A stretch of DNA of 64,000 bases from Treponema bryantii (GTDB taxonomy: Bacteria; Spirochaetota; Spirochaetia; Treponematales; Treponemataceae), in the NCBI RefSeq assembly GCF_900113965.1, contig NZ_FORI01000003.1, positions 186,001 to 250,000 of the forward strand, read 5' to 3'. This document shows positions 1,974 to 50,933 of this stretch, piece by piece. A program made the translations under genes and the position numbers. Every line of letters starts with the position of its first letter. Position 1 is the first letter of the stretch. Below the pieces are notes generated by a model. It made no database searches. It was not told the DNA's origin and saw only the letters and a list, made by a program, of their open reading frames with translations.

Positions 1974-2318
1974 TTATGAAATTACAAGATTCATATTTCC
2001 AATTGAGATTTTATCACCCGGATTCAGTTTAACATATTTTTCATTTGGGATTCGCACTCCATTAATAAATGTGCCGTTGGTACTTCCAACATCCTTAATA
2101 AAATATGCATCTTTGATTTTCTGAATCATTGCATGATGACGGCTTGCAAGTTTATTGTCTACCACAACATCATTATCTGTGTCGCGGCCGATTGTAATTT
2201 TGGCTACAAGCTCAACCTTCTTATGATTAAACATAAGATATGAAGCTGGTTTTCCTTCACCAAGAGAATCAAGATGGCGTCCTACCGGACTGTTAGTTAC
2301 AATTGTTGTATCACTCAT
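1974..2318 (-). CDS. Small FHA-domain protein (GarA-like architecture)
   Basis: 114 residues, essentially one forkhead-associated domain that binds phosphothreonine peptides. Conserved positions are visible: G44-R45, S59-R-H61, and S79-T-N-G-T83. The N-terminal tail (MSDTTIVTNSP) is rich in Thr/Ser ahead of the domain, as in actinobacterial GarA/OdhI, where a kinase phosphorylates the tail and the FHA domain then folds back on it; that role here is inference. It lies between a DUF2974 gene (2 bp away) and the phosphoesterase gene. There is no SD before ATG 2318. A TATAAT hexamer sits 6 bp upstream, so the mRNA may be leaderless. Confidence 0.88.
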   Translation of the reverse strand: MSDTTIVTNSPVGRHLDSLGEGKPASYLMFNHKKVELVAKITIGRDTDNDVVVDNKLASRHHAMIQKIKDAYFIKDVGSTNGTFINGVRIPNEKYVKLNPGDKISIGNMNLVIS

Positions 2319-2320
2319 AG

Positions 2321-3472
2321 TTAAATTATAGAGCCACCGCCCGTTATTCGCAAATTATTTTTAAGCAGAACAAGAGGTTTAAAGATTGGAATATCATCTG
2401 CAATTACGTCCTTGAACATACTTAAGATTTTCTTCATATCATTTCTTTTGGTTCTGTCCAGTTCTGCATAATAAGCAAGCATTTTAGCGGTTGCCTTAAG
2501 CGCTTCCTTTTCTATTTCGTTATTTGTTTTACAGCCCGAAGCTTCCAGAATTCCAAACATTGTCTGTACAAATTCTTTTTTCTGAGAAACCTTGAGCTTA
2601 TCAATCCATTCATTAAAAGCACTGTAGAATAAGCGGCTTTCATCTGTAAACTCTGCTTCATTAACGAAGTTTGAGCCCATTATCTGCCAGCTCATTGCAT
2701 CGTGCTGCCAGAAAGCAAAACCTTCACTCTTTACAATTTCAAAATTCTTTGGATGATGGAAAATCATACCAACAACCGAAAATCCCGGATAGAAAGAATA
2801 GATTCTCTCTTCCACTGCCTTGTATTCCTCTGTATCAAAGAAATCTGCAGCAAAACCTGGTCCATCAAAGTTATAAACATTGTCTATACGTTTCTGAGCT
2901 TTTTCACCACAGTTTACAGCTGTATTTATAACAAGGTTTCCGCCTTTAGAATGTCCTGTAAGAATAAAATTACCCGAAAGCGCCTTTTCTGCTTCTGAAA
3001 AATACTCAAGGGCATCTTTCTGCGCCGGAATCTGAGGAATCCAGGCAATATTAAAATCTTCCTTCCAGCCAACTATAGTATCATCTGTACCGCGCAATGC
3101 AATTACGTTCTTTCCATCTATAATAAAGGTAACTGCAGCAAACTGTTCTACATTTTCTTCATTATAAATGCTTCTAAAGCCGCATAATTCAACATTACGG
3201 TATCTTTCAGATTCTGCTGTCTTAAACATGAGTTCTGCAGTTCTTTTATTGATAAGAAAGCCTATATTGATTCTTTCCTCATAATCTGTTGTAGCTGCAA
3301 AATCTTTGGCAACCTGAGCAAAGGTTTTTCTTTCTGTAAAAGTAGAAGGAACTACCCCATCAAAGATTGAATAACTAAGATGTGCAAGGAGCAAAGCATC
3401 TATCTTATTGAAAGCAACCTTATCAAAAGATATATCACCGCGCCAATTTAAATAATCAAAAAAATCTGCCAT
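2321..3472 (-). CDS. DUF2974 (Mbeg1-like) alpha/beta-hydrolase protein
   Basis: 383 residues matching the DUF2974/Mbeg1-like family by its N-terminus (DYLNWRGDISFD) and by the lipase-type nucleophile elbow GHSKGG with Ser175, preceded by ALRGTDD. The family is widespread in gut bacteria and its substrate is not established; the fold predicts an ester or thioester hydrolase. No signal peptide. A GTG two codons upstream (3478) is possible, but ATG 3472 has AGAGG at proper spacing and is preferred. It is the first gene of the minus-strand cluster with FHA, phosphoesterase and kinase genes, and is divergent from uraA. Its last codons contain the -10 hexamer of the next gene. Confidence 0.78.
   Translation of the reverse strand: MADFFDYLNWRGDISFDKVAFNKIDALLLAHLSYSIFDGVVPSTFTERKTFAQVAKDFAATTDYEERINIGFLINKRTAELMFKTAESERYRNVELCGFRSIYNEENVEQFAAVTFIIDGKNVIALRGTDDTIVGWKEDFNIAWIPQIPAQKDALEYFSEAEKALSGNFILTGHSKGGNLVINTAVNCGEKAQKRIDNVYNFDGPGFAADFFDTEEYKAVEERIYSFYPGFSVVGMIFHHPKNFEIVKSEGFAFWQHDAMSWQIMGSNFVNEAEFTDESRLFYSAFNEWIDKLKVSQKKEFVQTMFGILEASGCKTNNEIEKEALKATAKMLAYYAELDRTKRNDMKKILSMFKDVIADDIPIFKPLVLLKNNLRITGGGSII
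2325..2353 (-). promoter_or_regulatory. Predicted promoter of the FHA gene, inside the DUF2974 3' end
   Basis: Minus-strand TTGCGA (2353-2348), 17 bp spacer, TATAAT (2330-2325), then 6 bp to ATG 2318. The -10 overlaps the last codons of the preceding gene. No SD lies in the 6 bp gap, so transcription would begin at or next to the start codon. Confidence 0.55.
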
Positions 3473-7920: not shown

Positions 7921-8238
7921 TTACTGATTTTTTAATAATTCCAGCATTTTTCTAAAAGCGCTGTCTTCTTTATTAAGTTCTCGTGAACCACGTGTAATTT
8001 TACAAAGCGACATAGCAAACTTATTTGCAATCTCGCGCTGTGTTGTTCCTTTATCAATTTCTTTTACCAAAAGCCAGCGGTTTGCAATATCCTTAAGTTC
8101 AGGCTTTGTAAAGAGACAGTTGAAAAACTCATATATAAAAGCTTCATCACCTGACTTTAAAATCAAATGACAAAGCTCTTTTATTGTAGCGGAAATTTCT
8201 TCTTCTGAAATACCCTTTGTTTCTTTGTTATCGTTCAT
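7921..8238 (-). CDS. TrpR/YerC/YecD-family transcriptional regulator
   Basis: 105 residues, all helical in character, matching the TrpR superfamily. The helix-turn-helix TTQREIANKFAMS runs from about residue 65 and is followed by KITRGSREL, which includes the Arg of the TrpR tryptophan-contact motif ITRG. It probably binds DNA as a dimer with a small-molecule corepressor. No tryptophan biosynthesis or transport gene is nearby, so the target is unknown. ATG 8238 has no SD, and a -10 hexamer lies 6 bp upstream. The next gene on the strand encodes the ankyrin lipoprotein. YerC-type function rather than true Trp repression is possible. Confidence 0.8.
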   Translation of the reverse strand: MNDNKETKGISEEEISATIKELCHLILKSGDEAFIYEFFNCLFTKPELKDIANRWLLVKEIDKGTTQREIANKFAMSLCKITRGSRELNKEDSAFRKMLELLKNQ

Positions 8239-8244
8239 AGAAAC

Positions 8245-8272
8245 AGTATATCAGAAAATATAGAAATTGCAA
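8245..8272 (-). promoter_or_regulatory. Predicted promoter of the trpR-like gene (leaderless type)
   Basis: Minus-strand TTGCAA (8272-8267), 16 bp spacer, TATACT (8250-8245), then 6 bp to ATG 8238. The gap GTTTCT has no SD, so the transcript should start at or beside the AUG. Confidence 0.55.
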
Positions 8273-15918: not shown

Positions 15919-16170
15919 GGTTTACTTTTTAACCCCCAATACAGCATCCGCCGAAAACTTTTATCAAGTACTTTTTACACATCAAACATCTGTTTGTATG
16001 CACACTCTTTGTACTTACTCAGAGTATAAACCCATATTATAAAAATTAGCAAATAAATTTTTCAAAATTTTGCATAAATTTTAGGGAATTTTGCCGAATT
16101 TGCCGAAAATTTTGCACTTAGTTTGTTTTTTCTCTGTACTTACTGAAAAAGTTGATTTATAATTAGAACC
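15919..16170. promoter_or_regulatory. Divergent control region, ROK gene / GH20-nag operon
   Basis: 252 bp, AT-rich. GTACTTACT occurs twice (16011-16019 and 16136-16144), the second overlapping the GH20 -35 region. CGAAAA followed closely by TTTT occurs twice (from about 15952 and 16104), and AAAATTTTGCA occurs twice. A TATAAT lies at 16158-16163. The repeats are good operator candidates; the assignment to the ROK protein is inference. Confidence 0.5.
16135..16163 (+). promoter_or_regulatory. Predicted promoter of the GH20-nag operon (leaderless type)
   Basis: Weak -35 TGTACT (16135-16140), 17 bp spacer, TATAAT (16158-16163), then TAGAACC and ATG 16171. No SD is present, so initiation at or one base before the AUG is predicted. 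A weak -35 overlapped by a direct repeat suits regulated expression. Confidence 0.5.
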
Positions 16171-17703
16171 ATGAACAGAACAATTACTATTATACCAAGA
16201 CCGCTTTCAATTGAGTACGGTGATAAAACAATAGGCATCTCAAAGAAGTCTGTTTCTATCTGCATCAACGGAGAAACCAGAAACGACATTCACAATACAT
16301 TAAAGACCGCTTTCAAAATTACTGGAATTGATACTTCAGAAAAAGGTCTTCCAGTTTTTGTTGATATCCGTATAAAAGATAACGACGAAAATAACGAAGC
16401 TTATTCTCTCAATATAACTGAAGAAGGAATTCGTATTAAGGCAGAGGGAATAAACGGCGCGTTCTACGGATGTATTAGCGCTGGTCAGATTATTAGTGGC
16501 GCGGACGGAGAACTTCCTCAGGTATCAATTTCTGATAAACCTGTTCACAGCTGGAGAGGCTTCCTTCTTGATACATGCCGTTCTTTCTATAGCACAACCT
16601 TTATAAAGAAAATGCTTGATGCCTGTGCACTTCACAAGCTCAACATTCTTCACTGGCACCTTACAGATGATCAGGGCTGGAGATTTGAAGTACCAGAATA
16701 TCCGCTCCTTACAGAAGTTGGTTCTAAGAGGCAGGACAACACTTTGCCAGAAGCTATCGACGGTTTTTATGATGAAGGAAAAGAAAGCCGCCGCTGGTAT
16801 ACAGATGAAGAAATCAAAGATATTGTACGTTATGCAAAAGAACGCTGCATCAACATTATTCCTGAAGTAGAATTCCCTGGCCACTCCTCTGCCCTTCTTG
16901 CAGCATATCCTGAGTTTGGTTGTACAGGCGGTCCATACCACGTAGAAAACCGCTGGGGTATCTTCCCGGATGTACTTTGTCTTGGAAACGATAAGATTTT
17001 TGATATTTACCAGGCAGCGCTTGAAAAGATTACAAAGCTCTTCCCTTCTGATTATATCCATATTGGTGGAGACGAATGTCCTCACGAAAGATGGGATGTA
17101 TGCCCAAAGTGTCTTGAGCGTATGAAAAAAGAAGGTCTGGATTCAACAGCAGAACTTCAGGCATGGGGAACAACAAAAATAGCTTCTATGGTAGCAGCTC
17201 TCGGAAAAACTCCAATCGGCTGGGATGAAGTTCTTGAAAACAACAAACACAATGCTCTTCCGGCAAATGTAATTGTGCAGAGCTGGCGTGGTATAGAAGG
17301 CGGAATCAAAGCTGCTTCTATGAATCACAAAGTTATTATGTCGCCATGTGAACGCTTCTATCTCAATTTCAAGAATAAAGATTCTTTTGAAGAACCAGGA
17401 AGACTTGGCGTAACAACAACTAAAAAGCTTTACACCTTCTCTCCTGCAGGAAAAGAACTCAAGCTCGAGAATCCGGATCAGAAAAATCTGATTCTTGGTG
17501 GTGAATGTGCCCTGTGGACAGAAAAGCTTCCACACTCACGCAATGCAGAATATCTTCTTTTCCCAAGATTCTGTGCTGCCTCAGAAACACTCTGGCTTCC
17601 GGAAGAAGAAAAAGATTTTGAAGATTTCAAAGTAAGAATAGAATATCATAAAAAATTATTGCATCAGCTGGATTACCGCTTTTATGAAGGAGAACTAGAA
17701 TAG
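16171..17703 (+). CDS. Beta-N-acetylhexosaminidase (GH20)
   Basis: 510 residues. GH20 enzymes remove terminal GlcNAc/GalNAc from oligosaccharides by substrate-assisted catalysis. The diagnostic H-I-G-G-D301-E302 pair is present (polarizing Asp, acid Glu), as are LLDTCRSFYS, HWHLTDDQGWR near residue 165, PEVEFPGHSSA, and the later IGWDEVL and QSWRG active-site segments. An N-terminal GH20b-like domain covers about residues 1-125. No signal peptide is visible, so a cytoplasmic enzyme acting on imported oligosaccharides is inferred. It begins the nagA-nagB-hexokinase operon, with the nagA SD directly after its stop codon. Confidence 0.94.
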   Translation: MNRTITIIPRPLSIEYGDKTIGISKKSVSICINGETRNDIHNTLKTAFKITGIDTSEKGLPVFVDIRIKDNDENNEAYSLNITEEGIRIKAEGINGAFYGCISAGQIISGADGELPQVSISDKPVHSWRGFLLDTCRSFYSTTFIKKMLDACALHKLNILHWHLTDDQGWRFEVPEYPLLTEVGSKRQDNTLPEAIDGFYDEGKESRRWYTDEEIKDIVRYAKERCINIIPEVEFPGHSSALLAAYPEFGCTGGPYHVENRWGIFPDVLCLGNDKIFDIYQAALEKITKLFPSDYIHIGGDECPHERWDVCPKCLERMKKEGLDSTAELQAWGTTKIASMVAALGKTPIGWDEVLENNKHNALPANVIVQSWRGIEGGIKAASMNHKVIMSPCERFYLNFKNKDSFEEPGRLGVTTTKKLYTFSPAGKELKLENPDQKNLILGGECALWTEKLPHSRNAEYLLFPRFCAASETLWLPEEEKDFEDFKVRIEYHKKLLHQLDYRFYEGELE

Positions 17704-41400: not shown

Positions 41401-41501
41401 GAAATACCTCTCGGCGAAACTCCATACAAAAAAAGGCTTCCGCGCTCGCTTTGCTCGCTTGTGCAGAATTTTTTTTGTATGGATTTCGCCTACGGTATTT
41501 C
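41401..41501. repeat. About 100-bp imperfect palindrome between divergent genes
   Basis: GAAATACC (41401-41408) pairs with GGTATTTC (41494-41501), GGCGAAA (41413-41419) with TTTCGCC (41484-41490), and TCCATACAAAAAAA (41421-41434) with the T-run through 41483: about 29 paired bases. The 35-nt loop contains a CGAGC-AAAG-CGAGC tandem. No open frame or target duplication is evident. Confidence 0.65.
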
Positions 41502-41585
41502 ACTTCACAGTTAAATTATAAAACGTATTTCCTTATAAAACAAATAAAAAACTCAAGAAATACTCGTCAAGGGATTGTTAAAAAT

Positions 41586-41593
41586 GGTATACT
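41586..41593 (+). promoter_or_regulatory. Extended -10 element 7 bp before a start codon
   Basis: TGGTATACT (41585-41593) forms an extended -10 (TGnTATACT). A -35 is not convincing. ATG 41601 follows after 7 bp with no SD, consistent with a leaderless mRNA. Confidence 0.4.
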
Positions 41594-41600
41594 TTATGAT

Positions 41601-42350
41601 ATGCTTGTTAAGAACACAAATTATAGCGTTATTTATTCGGATGATGATTTTGTAGTACTCAATAAAAGAAGCGGCATTCTTATTGCGGCAGACCGTTACA
41701 ACGAAGACGCACCACGTCTGGATCTGCTTGCGCAGGAAGAATTCGGAAAGCTTTATGCCGTTCACAGAATTGATAAAGACACCTCAGGACTTATTATTTA
41801 TGCACGCACAGCTGAAGCTCAGAGAAATCTTTCCATGCAGTTTGAATCACGGGAAGTTCAGAAGACTTATCATGCTCTGGTATATGGTCACCCTCTCTGG
41901 GAAACCCTTGATGTAGATTTACCTCTTCAGCCAGATGGAGATTCACGACACAGAACCGTTGCAAGCAAGCGTTACGGAAAACCTTCTTTTACAAGCTTCC
42001 GCCTTATAGGAACATGTGGTCCTTATTCATGGATTGAAGCAAAGCCAAAAACCGGTCGTACACATCAGATTCGTGTACACCTTGCAGAAAACGGACTTTC
42101 AATTGTCTGCGACCCTCTTTACAGTGGAAACCAGAAGCCGGTAAAACTCAGCGAAATCAAAAAAAAGTGGAATGGCGACGAATACGAAGAGCGCCCACTT
42201 TTAAGCAGACTTGCCCTTCACGCTTATAAGATTGAAATTAAACATCCAAGAACCGGGGAGCCGGTAAGCTTTACAGCACCATATCCAAAAGACATGGACG
42301 CAACCAGAAAACAGCTGGCAAAACTTTTTGGAGTCGATCCGCTGGTATAA
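41601..42350 (+). CDS. RluA-family pseudouridine synthase (second copy)
   Basis: 249 residues from ATG 41601; the frame opens at 41451, but the earlier part lies within the palindromic intergenic region and does not resemble the family. Catalytic motif VHRIDKDTSG, with FVVLNKRSGILIAADR before it and PKTGRTHQIRVHLAENG after it. Modifies uridines in rRNA or tRNA. No S4 domain visible. The omptin-like gene starts 3 bp after its stop, so the two may be co-transcribed. Confidence 0.87.
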   Translation: MLVKNTNYSVIYSDDDFVVLNKRSGILIAADRYNEDAPRLDLLAQEEFGKLYAVHRIDKDTSGLIIYARTAEAQRNLSMQFESREVQKTYHALVYGHPLWETLDVDLPLQPDGDSRHRTVASKRYGKPSFTSFRLIGTCGPYSWIEAKPKTGRTHQIRVHLAENGLSIVCDPLYSGNQKPVKLSEIKKKWNGDEYEERPLLSRLALHAYKIEIKHPRTGEPVSFTAPYPKDMDATRKQLAKLFGVDPLV

Positions 42351-46886: not shown

Positions 46887-49800
46887 TTATTTGAAGTATG
46901 AAACGCCGGCTGCAAAGAGGTTTTCACAGGTTGTTTCACTTTCGTTTGTAAGTGGGCTTCCACCTACGTTCTTGAACAGGTCAAGAGATGCGCCGTTTAC
47001 TTCCATGCCTACGCCACGCTCTGAATGTCCCATCTTTCCAAGAACGTGTCCGTCTGGAGATGTGATACCTTCGATTGCGAATGCAGATCCGTTAGGGTTA
47101 TCCGGCTCAGAAATTGCAGGACGTCCGAACTCGTCAACGTACTGTGTGAATACTTGTCCATTTTCGAACAGTCTCTTAGCTGTTGCTTCATCACAAACAA
47201 AGCGTCCTTCTCCGTGAGAAATTGCGATGAGGTGATTTCTCTGGTCGATTACGCTTGGGTGCATTGCCCATGGTGAAGTTGCAGATACGATACGTGTACG
47301 TACAATGCGTGAAATATGACGGTTGATTCTATTGTATGTCAAAGTTGGCATATCAGGAGTCATATCGCAGATTTCACCGTATACAGCAAGACCTGTCTTA
47401 ACAAGAGCCTGGAAACCGTTACAGATTCCAAGTACAAGACCGTCGCGCTTTTTAAGAAGATTCATAACTTCTTCGCTGATGTTTCCTGCCTTGAGTACGT
47501 TTGCAATAAACTTTGCAGAACCATCTGGTTCATCGCCTGATGAGAATCCACCACTGAGGGCAAGAATCTGTGCGTCGCGAAGTTCGCGTGCGAGGTTATC
47601 AAGAGATTCTGTAAGCTGAGCCTGTGTGCGGTTCTGGAGTACGAGAATCTTTGTTTCTGCACCTGCAAGGTTGAAGGCACGGGCCATATCGATTTCGCAG
47701 TTTGTTCCCGGGAATACAGGGAGCAATACCTTTGGACGGCTTGTTGGCTGAACAAAGGCTGGAGCCTTACGGATGTCTGAAAGTGATTTGTGAACATCTG
47801 TTGCCCATTCTGGGAGTTTTGGCTGCTCTGGAACACCACTAACACGTGGGAATACTTCCTTGAGCTTATCTTCCCATTTATTTACACAGTCATAAAGGCT
47901 GATTTCAACTTCTGGATTTGTAACGCCGCCAAGCTTTGCATTCTTGATTACGATTGCAGGCTTATCAGTTGTCATACCAAGCTGAACGAGGGTACCTGGC
48001 ACAAAGGCTGCCTTTTCAAACTCTGGTACATGAGCTGATGGAACTTCTACGATGATGTTTCCGTAAGTTGGAACGAAGAGATTTCTCAAGGTGGTTTCGA
48101 CAGGCTCAACCACCGATGCGTCAATCTTGGCACCAACCATGTTACCCATTGCCATCTTTGTAACAGCTTCTGCAATTCCACCAGGTCCTACAGGATACAT
48201 AGCGGCAATGCGGCGGGCCTTATTGAGCTCGTAAAGTATATCTGAGTTTTTAAGGAAGGTTTCGTAATCTGGTTCGAGAAGGTCTGAATAAGGAACCTTT
48301 ACCATATAGATATTGTTTCCGCTTACCTTGAAAGAACCTGAAAGTACGTTTGGAGCTTCGTCGTGTGTTACGGCAAAACTTACAAGTGTATGTGGAACGT
48401 TGATATCTTCAAAAGTACCAGACATTGAGTCCTTACCACCGATAGAAGCACAACCAGATTCAACCTGTGCATCTACAGAACCGAGAAGTGCTGCTGCAGG
48501 ATAACCCCAGCGCTTTTCGTTTACTGCACGACCAAAGAATTCCTGGAAGCTCAGGCGGCTTGTGCGAGCCTTACCACCAATACAAGTGATTTTTGCAAGT
48601 GAGCTGAGAACTGCAGTTTTTGCTCCGTGCCATGGAGACCACTGACCAACACGTGGGTCAAAGCCGTATGTCATGAGACTGGCAGTTGAAGTTTCACGCG
48701 GTGTCATTACAGGAATCTTAGCAGACATACCTGCTTCCGGTGTATTCTGATATTTTCCTCCATATGGGAAAAGAACTGTGCTTGAACCGATTGAGCCGTC
48801 GAAGCGTTCGCCAAGACCGCGCTGTGAACAACATGCAAGGTCATTGATGTTTGCAAGCCATGCGTCTGTAAGATGATTCTTTACACAGCCTTCGCACTTA
48901 ACAGGCTTGTCGAGTTCTGCGGCAACTGCCTCGAGAGGGTTCAGCAATGGAGACTTAGCAGGCTCAGCAGGCTGCTCGATAAGAGCAGTTGCTTCATGAT
49001 GAGCACCAGCAGCGTCGAGGAACTCGCGACCGAGGTCTACGATAGTCTTTCCGCGCCACTTCATAACGAGGCGGTTTGTATCTGTAACTGTTGCAACAAC
49101 AACAGCGTTTAAGTTTTCTTTCTTTGCTTCTTCAATAAAGCGTTCTACATCAGCCTTGCGAACAACTACAGCCATACGTTCCTGGCTTTCTGAAATTGCA
49201 AGTTCTGTGCCGTTCAAACCTTCGTACTTCTTTGGTACTGCATCAAGGTTGATATCAAGACCAGGAGCAAGTTCACCAACAGCAACAGAAACACCACCGG
49301 CACCAAAGTCGTTACAGCGGCGAATCATAAGGCTTACTTCTTTATTGCGGAAGAGGCGCTGAATCTTACGCTCTTCAACAGCGTTACCCTTCTGAACTTC
49401 GGCAGCAGCAGTTGTAACAGATTTTACAGTGTGAACTTTTGAAGAACCTGTTGCACCACCAATACCGTCGCGGCCAGTACCACCACCAAGAAGAATGATG
49501 ATGTCGCCCGGCTCAGGACGTTCGCGGATAACTGTATCTACAGGAGCGGCAGCAATTACAGCACCAAGCTCCATACGTTTTGCGGCATAACCCGGGTGAT
49601 AGATTTCTTCTACCTGACCAGTTGTAAGACCAATCTGGTTACCGTAACTTGAGAAGCCCTGGGCTGCTTCGCGGCAGAGCTTAATCTGAGGGAGCTTTCC
49701 CTTCATTGTAGCGCTGAGTGGTACAGTTGGGTCTGCGGCACCGGTAATACGCATTGACTGGTAAACCCAGCTGCGTCCAGAAAGAGGGTCACGGATAGCA

Positions 49801-50885
49801 CCACCAAGACAAGTTGCAGCACCTCCGAATGGTTCGATTTCTGTTGGATGGTTATGAGTTTCGTTCTTGAACATCATAAGCCAGCGCTCTGTAGCGCGTG
49901 GGTCGTCAGCTGCCAATGGCTTTCCATTTTCATCAGCTGTGTAATGTACGTCTATATAAACCGAACATGCATTGTTTTCTTCAGAAACTTCCATATCTTC
50001 AAGTTTTCCGTGCTTCTTGAGATACTTCATTCCGATTACAGCCATATCCATTAAGCAGACTGGCTTGTCTGTACGGCCTGCATAAAGGTCAGTACGCATG
50101 TTGTTATAGTTTTCAAGTGATTTTTTGAAGAGCGGTGCATAAAGACCATCTTCAATTTTGATATCTTTAAGTTCTGTAAGGAAGGTTGTGTGACGGCAGT
50201 GGTCAGACCAGTAAGTATCGAGTACGCGGATTTCTGTTTCTACAGGGTCGCGTCCTTCGCCCTTGAAATAGTCCTGAAGGAACTTGATGTCTGCGAGGTC
50301 CATTGCAAGGCCCATCTTGTTACGGTATTCATCAAGCTCTGAATCATTCATTTTGATAAAGCCTTCAACAACAGGAATGTCTGCAGGCTCTTCTGAATGC
50401 ATCTTCAAAGTTTCTGGTTTTGTATCATCTGTAAGACGAGAATCTACAGGGTTTATAAGGTAGTTCTGAATCTTTTTGATTTCTTCATCTGAAACATCAC
50501 CCTCAAGAAGAACGATTTTTGCACAGCGAACTGCAGGAGGTTCTGTAAGAGTTTTTACTCCCTTAAGACCTGCACGGAGCAAAGAAAGACACTGCTCAGC
50601 AGAGTCTGCACGCTGATCGTACTGTCCAGGAAGGAATTCCCAGATAATCTCACGGCCACCGTGTTCAGGTAACTTTTCTGTAAAAACAAAGTCACTCTGT
50701 GGCTCAGAGAAAATGCGTGTTGCTGCAATTTTTGCAACTTCTTCGCTTACATTTTCAATGTCATAACGATTGAAATAACGAACTGCTTTTACACCTGCAA
50801 TTCCCAAAAAACTGTTGATTTCTGAAAGATAACGGCGCGCCTCGTTTTCAAAGCCTGGGCGGCGCTCTACATATAAACGATACAT
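46887..50885 (-). CDS. purL: Phosphoribosylformylglycinamidine synthase, single-chain
   Basis: 1332 residues. Fourth step of purine synthesis: FGAR + glutamine + ATP to FGAM. Domains in order: PurS-like N-terminus, linker with SDHCRHTTF, two AIR-synthase repeats (NETHNHPTEIEPFGGAATCLGG, GGGTGRDGIGGATGSS, GGKDSMSG), and a C-terminal glutaminase (FPGTNCE, nucleophile Cys in G-I-C-N-G-F-Q, late HGEGRF His). The large single-chain form is normal for this group. A dispersed repeat lies in frame at residues 925-932 (V-V-E-P-V-E-T-T). ATG 50885 has no SD; TATAAT lies 6 bp upstream. Confidence 0.96.
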   Translation of the reverse strand: MYRLYVERRPGFENEARRYLSEINSFLGIAGVKAVRYFNRYDIENVSEEVAKIAATRIFSEPQSDFVFTEKLPEHGGREIIWEFLPGQYDQRADSAEQCLSLLRAGLKGVKTLTEPPAVRCAKIVLLEGDVSDEEIKKIQNYLINPVDSRLTDDTKPETLKMHSEEPADIPVVEGFIKMNDSELDEYRNKMGLAMDLADIKFLQDYFKGEGRDPVETEIRVLDTYWSDHCRHTTFLTELKDIKIEDGLYAPLFKKSLENYNNMRTDLYAGRTDKPVCLMDMAVIGMKYLKKHGKLEDMEVSEENNACSVYIDVHYTADENGKPLAADDPRATERWLMMFKNETHNHPTEIEPFGGAATCLGGAIRDPLSGRSWVYQSMRITGAADPTVPLSATMKGKLPQIKLCREAAQGFSSYGNQIGLTTGQVEEIYHPGYAAKRMELGAVIAAAPVDTVIRERPEPGDIIILLGGGTGRDGIGGATGSSKVHTVKSVTTAAAEVQKGNAVEERKIQRLFRNKEVSLMIRRCNDFGAGGVSVAVGELAPGLDINLDAVPKKYEGLNGTELAISESQERMAVVVRKADVERFIEEAKKENLNAVVVATVTDTNRLVMKWRGKTIVDLGREFLDAAGAHHEATALIEQPAEPAKSPLLNPLEAVAAELDKPVKCEGCVKNHLTDAWLANINDLACCSQRGLGERFDGSIGSSTVLFPYGGKYQNTPEAGMSAKIPVMTPRETSTASLMTYGFDPRVGQWSPWHGAKTAVLSSLAKITCIGGKARTSRLSFQEFFGRAVNEKRWGYPAAALLGSVDAQVESGCASIGGKDSMSGTFEDINVPHTLVSFAVTHDEAPNVLSGSFKVSGNNIYMVKVPYSDLLEPDYETFLKNSDILYELNKARRIAAMYPVGPGGIAEAVTKMAMGNMVGAKIDASVVEPVETTLRNLFVPTYGNIIVEVPSAHVPEFEKAAFVPGTLVQLGMTTDKPAIVIKNAKLGGVTNPEVEISLYDCVNKWEDKLKEVFPRVSGVPEQPKLPEWATDVHKSLSDIRKAPAFVQPTSRPKVLLPVFPGTNCEIDMARAFNLAGAETKILVLQNRTQAQLTESLDNLARELRDAQILALSGGFSSGDEPDGSAKFIANVLKAGNISEEVMNLLKKRDGLVLGICNGFQALVKTGLAVYGEICDMTPDMPTLTYNRINRHISRIVRTRIVSATSPWAMHPSVIDQRNHLIAISHGEGRFVCDEATAKRLFENGQVFTQYVDEFGRPAISEPDNPNGSAFAIEGITSPDGHVLGKMGHSERGVGMEVNGASLDLFKNVGGSPLTNESETTCENLFAAGVSYFK
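48090..48114. repeat. GGTTTCGACAGGCTCAACC-type repeat inside purL
   Basis: Complete 25-bp copy in the purL coding sequence, translated in frame as VVEPVETT between the second AIR-synthase domain segments NMVGAKIDAS and LRNLFVPTYG. Confidence 0.85.
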
Positions 50886-50891
50886 AGAGCG

Positions 50892-50920
50892 ATTATATCA
50901 AAAAAGAGACCCCGAAACAA
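50892..50920 (-). promoter_or_regulatory. Predicted leaderless promoter of purL
   Basis: Minus strand TTGTTT (50920-50915), 17 bp, TATAAT (50897-50892), then 6 bp (CGCTCT) to ATG 50885. No SD. The -35 falls inside the terminator hairpin of the preceding gene. Confidence 0.5.
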
Positions 50921-50933
50921 GTTCGGGGTGACA
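50909..50933 (-). terminator. Dispersed-repeat hairpin serving as htrA terminator
   Basis: Arms CCCCGAA (50910-50916) and TTCGGGG (50921-50927 region) with a 5-nt loop; the minus strand continues TCTCTTTTTT. Member of the CCCGAACTTGTTT repeat family. Confidence 0.75.

Follow-up and report, generated by a model that had tools for sequence, protein, structure and literature searches.

Five genes of the 64-kb window, the whole stretch of DNA analysed here, begin 6 or 7 bp downstream of a sigma-70-type -10 hexamer. They encode an FHA-domain protein, a TrpR-like repressor, a glycoside hydrolase of family GH20, an RluA-like pseudouridine synthase and a single-chain FGAM synthase (PurL). All five boxes are present as the original prediction described them. 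Its statement that the gaps hold no Shine-Dalgarno (SD) sequence is correct for trpR, GH20, the RluA-like gene and purL; the FHA gene has only an off-position GGTGG ~16-20 nt before its ATG, too distant for a normal SD. The features are as follows.

1974-2318, minus strand: FHA-domain protein, 114 aa (Pfam FHA, 84.4 bits)
2325-2353, minus strand: FHA promoter TTGCGA-N17-TATAAT (-10 at 2330-2325), gap 6 to the ATG at 2318, within the 3' end of the upstream coding sequence
7921-8238, minus strand: TrpR-like repressor gene, 105 aa, with a putatively leaderless mRNA (Pfam Trp_repressor, 64.3 bits, cut-off 27)
8227-8244, minus strand: predicted TrpR auto-operator GTTTCTATGAACGATAAC, -6 to +12 of trpR, spanning the start codon
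8245-8253, minus strand: extended -10 of the trpR-like gene, TGA + TATACT (TATACT at 8250-8245), gap 6 to the ATG at 8238
8267-8272, minus strand: -35 of the trpR-like gene, TTGCAA, with a 16-bp spacer (the class prefers 17)
16158-16163, plus strand: GH20 -10, TATAAT, gap 7 to the ATG at 16171
16171-17703, plus strand: GH20 family enzyme, 510 aa (Pfam Glyco_hydro_20, 350 bits)
41585-41593, plus strand: extended -10 of the RluA-like gene, TGG + TATACT (TATACT at 41588-41593), gap 7 to the ATG at 41601
41601-42350, plus strand: RluA-family pseudouridine synthase, 249 aa (TIGR00005, 193.7 bits, cut-off 192.7)
46887-50885, minus strand: single-chain FGAM synthase (PurL), 1332 aa (TIGR01857, 1611 bits)
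50892-50920, minus strand: purL promoter TTGTTT-N17-TATAAT with a TGA extension (-10 at 50897-50892), gap 6 to the ATG at 50885
50909-50929, minus strand: terminator of the gene upstream of purL, overlapping the purL -35

A gene caller blind to upstream signals picked all five start codons, and for trpR, FHA, GH20 and purL no other start codon lies between the ATG and the nearest in-frame stop upstream. At trpR, the TGA of the extended -10 is itself an in-frame stop, making an earlier start codon impossible. For the RluA-like gene, both the caller and the orthologues indicate the ATG at 41601 rather than the longer frame from the TTG at 41451. The FHA gene is the least clean case, its -10 lying among the 3'-terminal codons of the gene before it, whose stop (2323-2321) ends 2 nt before the FHA ATG. 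Upstream of purL (50892-50929), the T-tract of the preceding terminator runs into the extended -10, and terminator, promoter and start fall within 55 bp.

The same arrangement recurs elsewhere in the genome. Our survey covered 1160 genes on 1.53 Mb (~48%) of a 3.19-Mb genome, in 22 contigs, of a rumen-type Treponema; they were called from hexamer coding statistics and a start-codon prior alone, so that upstream signals were unused. A box was defined as TATAAT with at most one mismatch at a gap of 6-7 bp to the start, and 200 dinucleotide shuffles served as controls; no-SD genes were those without an SD match of at least 4 nt, and strong-SD genes those with at least 5 nt. Such a box precedes 117 of the 1160 genes, versus 40.2 in shuffles (sd 5.5, maximum 56). 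The entire excess is confined to no-SD genes, 109/481 of which carry the box (21.0 shuffled, sd 4.5, maximum 35), bearing out the original prediction that the hexamer spacing is enriched genome-wide; before strong-SD genes the box is depleted (4/426 versus 12.5 shuffled). The gap profile of the no-SD genes is sharp, with 4 matches at gap 5, 53 at gap 6, 56 at gap 7 and 21 at gap 8, and no second peak at gaps 8-15. Internal in-frame ATGs (n = 9447) show no peak, 202 of them (2.1%) being boxed as compared with 10.1% of starts. The strict excess amounts to ~88 of the 1160 genes (~7.6% of the sample), which would correspond to ~180 genes genome-wide, supposing that the unsampled half is alike. About 1 in 12 genes thus appears to be transcribed from the start codon itself, with no ribosome-binding leader. 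The class displays the features by which leaderless ("TA-led") genes are recognized: a box at a fixed position beyond shuffles, no SD and an AUG start.

Several signatures independent of the box accompany it. They were counted in 134 no-SD genes whose box, at gap 6-7, could have up to two mismatches if it matched TANNNT. Of these, 37 have TTG at a spacer of exactly 17 bp, versus 6 of the 136 boxes at other gaps that served as controls, and 40 have a TGn extension, versus 9 of the controls. The start codon is ATG in 130 of the 134. A pyrimidine stands at -1 in 82% of the class and in 54% of SD genes, which corresponds to the usual Y(-1)A(+1) initiator placed at the ATG and points to its A as +1. 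Members also tend to be first in their transcription units: 56% have a divergent upstream neighbour (versus 21%), and only 16% have a same-strand neighbour within 50 bp (versus 47%; Fisher p = 6e-11). All of this would be expected if sigma-70 polymerase began transcription at the A of the ATG. Upstream terminators that might insulate leaderless genes from read-through were no more frequent in the class (6/41 versus 18/150, p = 0.6).

Regarding function, the original remark that several members are regulators or control-point enzymes came from a sample of five genes, and an enrichment of the class in such functions was not supported. A Pfam scan of 78 leaderless-type and 76 SD-led transcription-unit-first proteins revealed no over-represented family, and only 2 of the 78 had response-regulator domains. 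The members identified are mostly single housekeeping enzymes, including Mur ligases, RuvB, GcpE, ThiI, adenylosuccinate lyase, chorismate synthase and GatC. The coding-model score per codon is lower in leaderless-type genes than in SD-led transcription-unit-first genes (median, 0.202 versus 0.260; p = 3e-12), which hints at lower expression.

Conservation in relatives was scored over distinct orthologue starts, the copy from this genome included, for a box at gap 6-7. The purL box is kept in 24/24 Treponema starts despite diverged spacers, with an SD in none, whereas purL starts outside the genus have SD-like sites in its place. Of 70 distinct trpR starts, 47 have the -10 at gap 6-7, TATAAT is found there in 11/16 rluA and 10/16 FHA orthologues, and the GH20 box is present in 3/3 same-genus copies found. 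A second genome of the genus repeats the peak (29/121 no-SD genes versus 4.7 shuffled), and in two genomes of another family the excess is smaller and comes from small samples (4/42 versus 1.1 and 8/65 versus 1.6). The five genes are nonetheless the best-looking cases, and unselected orthologue pairs are much less concordant: among 53 pairs matched with one relative, 2 of 13 leaderless genes of this genome keep a strict box (p = 0.25). This low concordance indicates that the class turns over, genes moving between leaderless and SD-led starts. Counting the exact pattern at all ATGs gave 243 at gap 6-7 versus 143 at gap 10-11 in this genome, and 222-224 versus 160-175 in two genomes of the same family, with no excess at gap 6-7 in most other families of the phylum; this count is crude because it takes in every ATG, start or not. 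In rluA orthologues of other families (L157, L158, L159 and L160), TATAAT or TATACT lies 8-9 bp before the ATG, so that rluA may have been near-leaderless before the genus arose.

Taken together, we consider it very probable that the five sites belong to a leaderless class and that the start bases of trpR double as the operator of the TrpR-like repressor. In the mechanism we propose, a housekeeping sigma-70-type promoter (TTGnnn-17-TATAAT, often TGn-extended) would end 6-7 bp before the ATG; since this spacing would make the A of the start codon +1, the polymerase would yield an mRNA with neither a 5' leader nor an SD, on whose 5'-terminal AUG the ribosome would start. Read directly from the DNA are the enrichment at a fixed position, the loss of the SD, the signatures of promoter and initiator, the lead position in transcription units and the box kept at orthologues of the five genes; from them we infer the transcription start, which could lie 1-3 nt off the A, and the mode of translation. 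That sigma-70-type promoters set for a start at the A of the ATG mark a real class of SD-less genes, as originally proposed, is supported by the spacing, the independent signatures and the second genome.

The boxes could be thought to arise by chance, since AT-rich DNA before SD-less or miscalled starts would give TANNNT at any spacing; the genome is ~41% GC and some no-SD starts will be miscalled. However, the peak occurs only at gaps 6-7, above all 200 shuffles and not at internal ATGs, and the -35, TGn and -1 pyrimidine signals come with the box. The positional tests refute a chance origin, to which we give practically no credence. Somewhat easier to envisage, albeit still improbable, are leaders of only 1-10 nt, or mRNAs that have a leader but no SD and use S1-dependent or A/T-rich initiation, the near -10 being minor or secondary and the main start lying upstream. 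Transcription starts in Leptospira lie at various distances, 0-10 nt, from the start codon (PMC5243855), 347 no-SD genes of our sample have no box at gap 6-7, and read-through is possible at trpR, which lies 49 bp behind a Mrp-type gene. Very short leaders nevertheless fit poorly with the single peak in the gap profile and with a -1 preference that marks the A of the ATG as +1. The FHA gene alone admits a further reading, namely that its translation is coupled to that of the gene ending 2 nt upstream (stop at 2323-2321, start at 2318) and that the -10 within the upstream coding sequence is incidental. We regard this as a possibility of some weight but the less probable one, given that the box is at gap 6-7 in 10/16 orthologues, including that of L167, whose upstream frame appears to end earlier.

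Leaderless transcription thus remains our preferred reading for the class, and the trpR-like gene adds a regulatory aspect to it. Its product scores 55.8 bits against TIGR01321, the NCBIfam TrpR equivalog, below the cut-off of 67.25, and is therefore filed as a Trp_repressor-family protein and not as TrpR proper; it probably works like TrpR. Its closest named TrpR relative is that of Treponema bryantii B25 (98% identical), which places the organism near T. bryantii. At exactly -6, 27 of the 70 trpR orthologues carry an 18-bp palindrome with at least 12 of 16 matches to the consensus GTTACTATNNATAGTAAC, a level reached nowhere in 59 orthologue starts of the other four genes. GTTTCT is retained immediately 5' of the start codon, whether the -10 stands 6 or 7 bp away from it; the codons that follow the ATG turn the stretch into an imperfect palindrome, GTTtctATgrATrakAAC. 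The copy in the window is degenerate, agreeing with the consensus at 12 of 16 positions when counted by hand; relatives agree at up to 14-15. A few further trpR orthologues have GTTACTATTTATAGT-like palindromes 9 bp farther upstream.

Related sites precede tryptophan and aromatic genes elsewhere in this genome. The site before trpP (Pfam TrpP) has 0 mismatches to GTTACTATNNATAGTAAC; sites upstream of trpCF, trpE and an AMP-ligase gene adjoining an iorAB-like pair have 1 mismatch each, and a site upstream of pheA-aroF has 2. Two tandem sites lie before trpCF and two before trpE, where a third has 3 mismatches, and a sodium/solute symporter gene is also preceded by such a site (0-2 mismatches). 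By our arithmetic, the four sites with at most 1 mismatch compare with ~0.1 expected at the base composition of the genome. When 3 mismatches were allowed, the consensus was no commoner than its mirror-image control (28 versus 36), so the scan is uninformative at that setting. A 2-mismatch site also lies at L316 1501-1518, ~100 bp before a 2-isopropylmalate-synthase-like gene, and may be due to chance. In a Treponema relative, G001, all three sites in the DNA examined precede tryptophan genes, namely trpE, trpGD and trpBA. At its trpE and trpGD, a TTGACA -35 lies within the site or directly adjoins it, and ~17 bp farther on comes TATACTGTTTCTAT, a string shared with trpR. The predicted sites are the following, those of this genome lying before trpCF, trpE, pheA-aroF, trpP, the AMP-ligase gene beside the iorAB-like pair, and the symporter gene.

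L308 6370-6500 and 10780-10960: predicted TrpR sites, this genome
L307 8664-8681 and 11387-11404: predicted TrpR sites, this genome
L306 5875-5893, 8911-8928 and 9034-9051: predicted TrpR sites, this genome
C7:115033-115050: predicted TrpR site, this genome
C3:303276, C3:351951 and C3:371873: palindromes before trpE, trpGD and trpBA of G001 (stretches L205, L207 and L208)

Shared palindromic sites before tryptophan genes, a feature of a TrpR-type regulon, are thus found both in this genome and in G001, and tryptophan-dependent repression of the trp genes and of trpR itself is the most likely outcome. The palindrome across the trpR start, together with the matching sites before trp and aromatic genes, makes self-repression by the TrpR-like protein the most likely explanation at this locus: the repressor would bind over the transcription and translation start of its gene and shut off its own leaderless transcription, so that autorepression is likely to act at the very start of a leaderless mRNA. 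Half of the palindrome falls within the first codons and could be kept for the N-terminal protein sequence (MN/DxN) rather than as an operator. The GTTTCT half, however, precedes the start codon and lies outside any leaderless mRNA, its distance to the ATG is fixed while the -10 gap varies, and the palindrome recurs ahead of trp genes at other loci. Constraint by the protein sequence is for these reasons very unlikely. We lean towards regarding GTTACTATNNATAGTAAC as an undescribed type of operator used by the Trp-repressor homologue in Treponema, whose own gene would be leaderless with the operator centred on the start codon.

In E. coli, the TrpR operator lies over the repressor's own promoter, and TrpR also controls, among others, trpE, a gene for DAHP synthase and one for a tryptophan transporter. 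The Treponema system is similar in that a TrpR-family repressor has a predicted operator at its own promoter and predicted targets of the same kinds. Unlike the CTAG-type site of E. coli, the half-site here is GTTACTATN, and the gene whose start codon the palindrome spans is putatively leaderless.

Bacterial leaderless genes marked by TANNNT are established as a category (Zheng et al. 2011, PMC3160421), so that the distinct translation class originally suggested is a real class of SD-less starts but not a new kind. In that survey, 6 of the 18 spirochaete genomes listed had such genes, averaging 3.9% of genes (range, 1.8-6.9%); the first T of TANNNT stands ~12 bp upstream of the start there, without an SD and above shuffles (PMC3160421). 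The Treponema boxes agree in these respects, with a distance of 12-13 bp. In contrast, the excess here is ~7.6%, with a strict box and another method, and is accompanied by a strong TATAAT, a -35 at 17 bp, TGn and gene-level conservation. In the spirochaete Leptospira interrogans, dRNA-seq identified ~440 mRNAs with short leaders, half of them below 2 nt; there the ends were measured and spread over 0-10 nt, whereas the Treponema spacing is sharply 6-7 and the zero leader is predicted from sequence (PMC5243855). A -10 a few base pairs before the ORF is the promoter of leaderless mRNAs in Deinococcus-Thermus as well, where the TANNNT motif marks ~30% of ORFs; in comparison, fewer genes are involved here and the sigma-70 consensus is fuller (PMC12340547). 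We found no paper on leaderless genes in Treponema, nor a relevant one on TrpR operators in this genus, in the open literature, subscription journals being outside the search. What would be new is the count in Treponema and the predicted TrpR operator over a leaderless trpR start.

Our analysis names ~90 genes in half a Treponema genome that are likely to be leaderless, a list that can be tested gene by gene, and start annotation and expression design in Treponema should not depend on SD sites. It also offers a specific predicted TrpR regulon for spirochaetes. If the operator is as predicted, the same 18 bp would contain the starts of both transcription and translation as well as the first codons of trpR, locking autorepression, transcription start and N-terminal sequence together, and leaderless initiation would be what permits operator and start codon to overlap.
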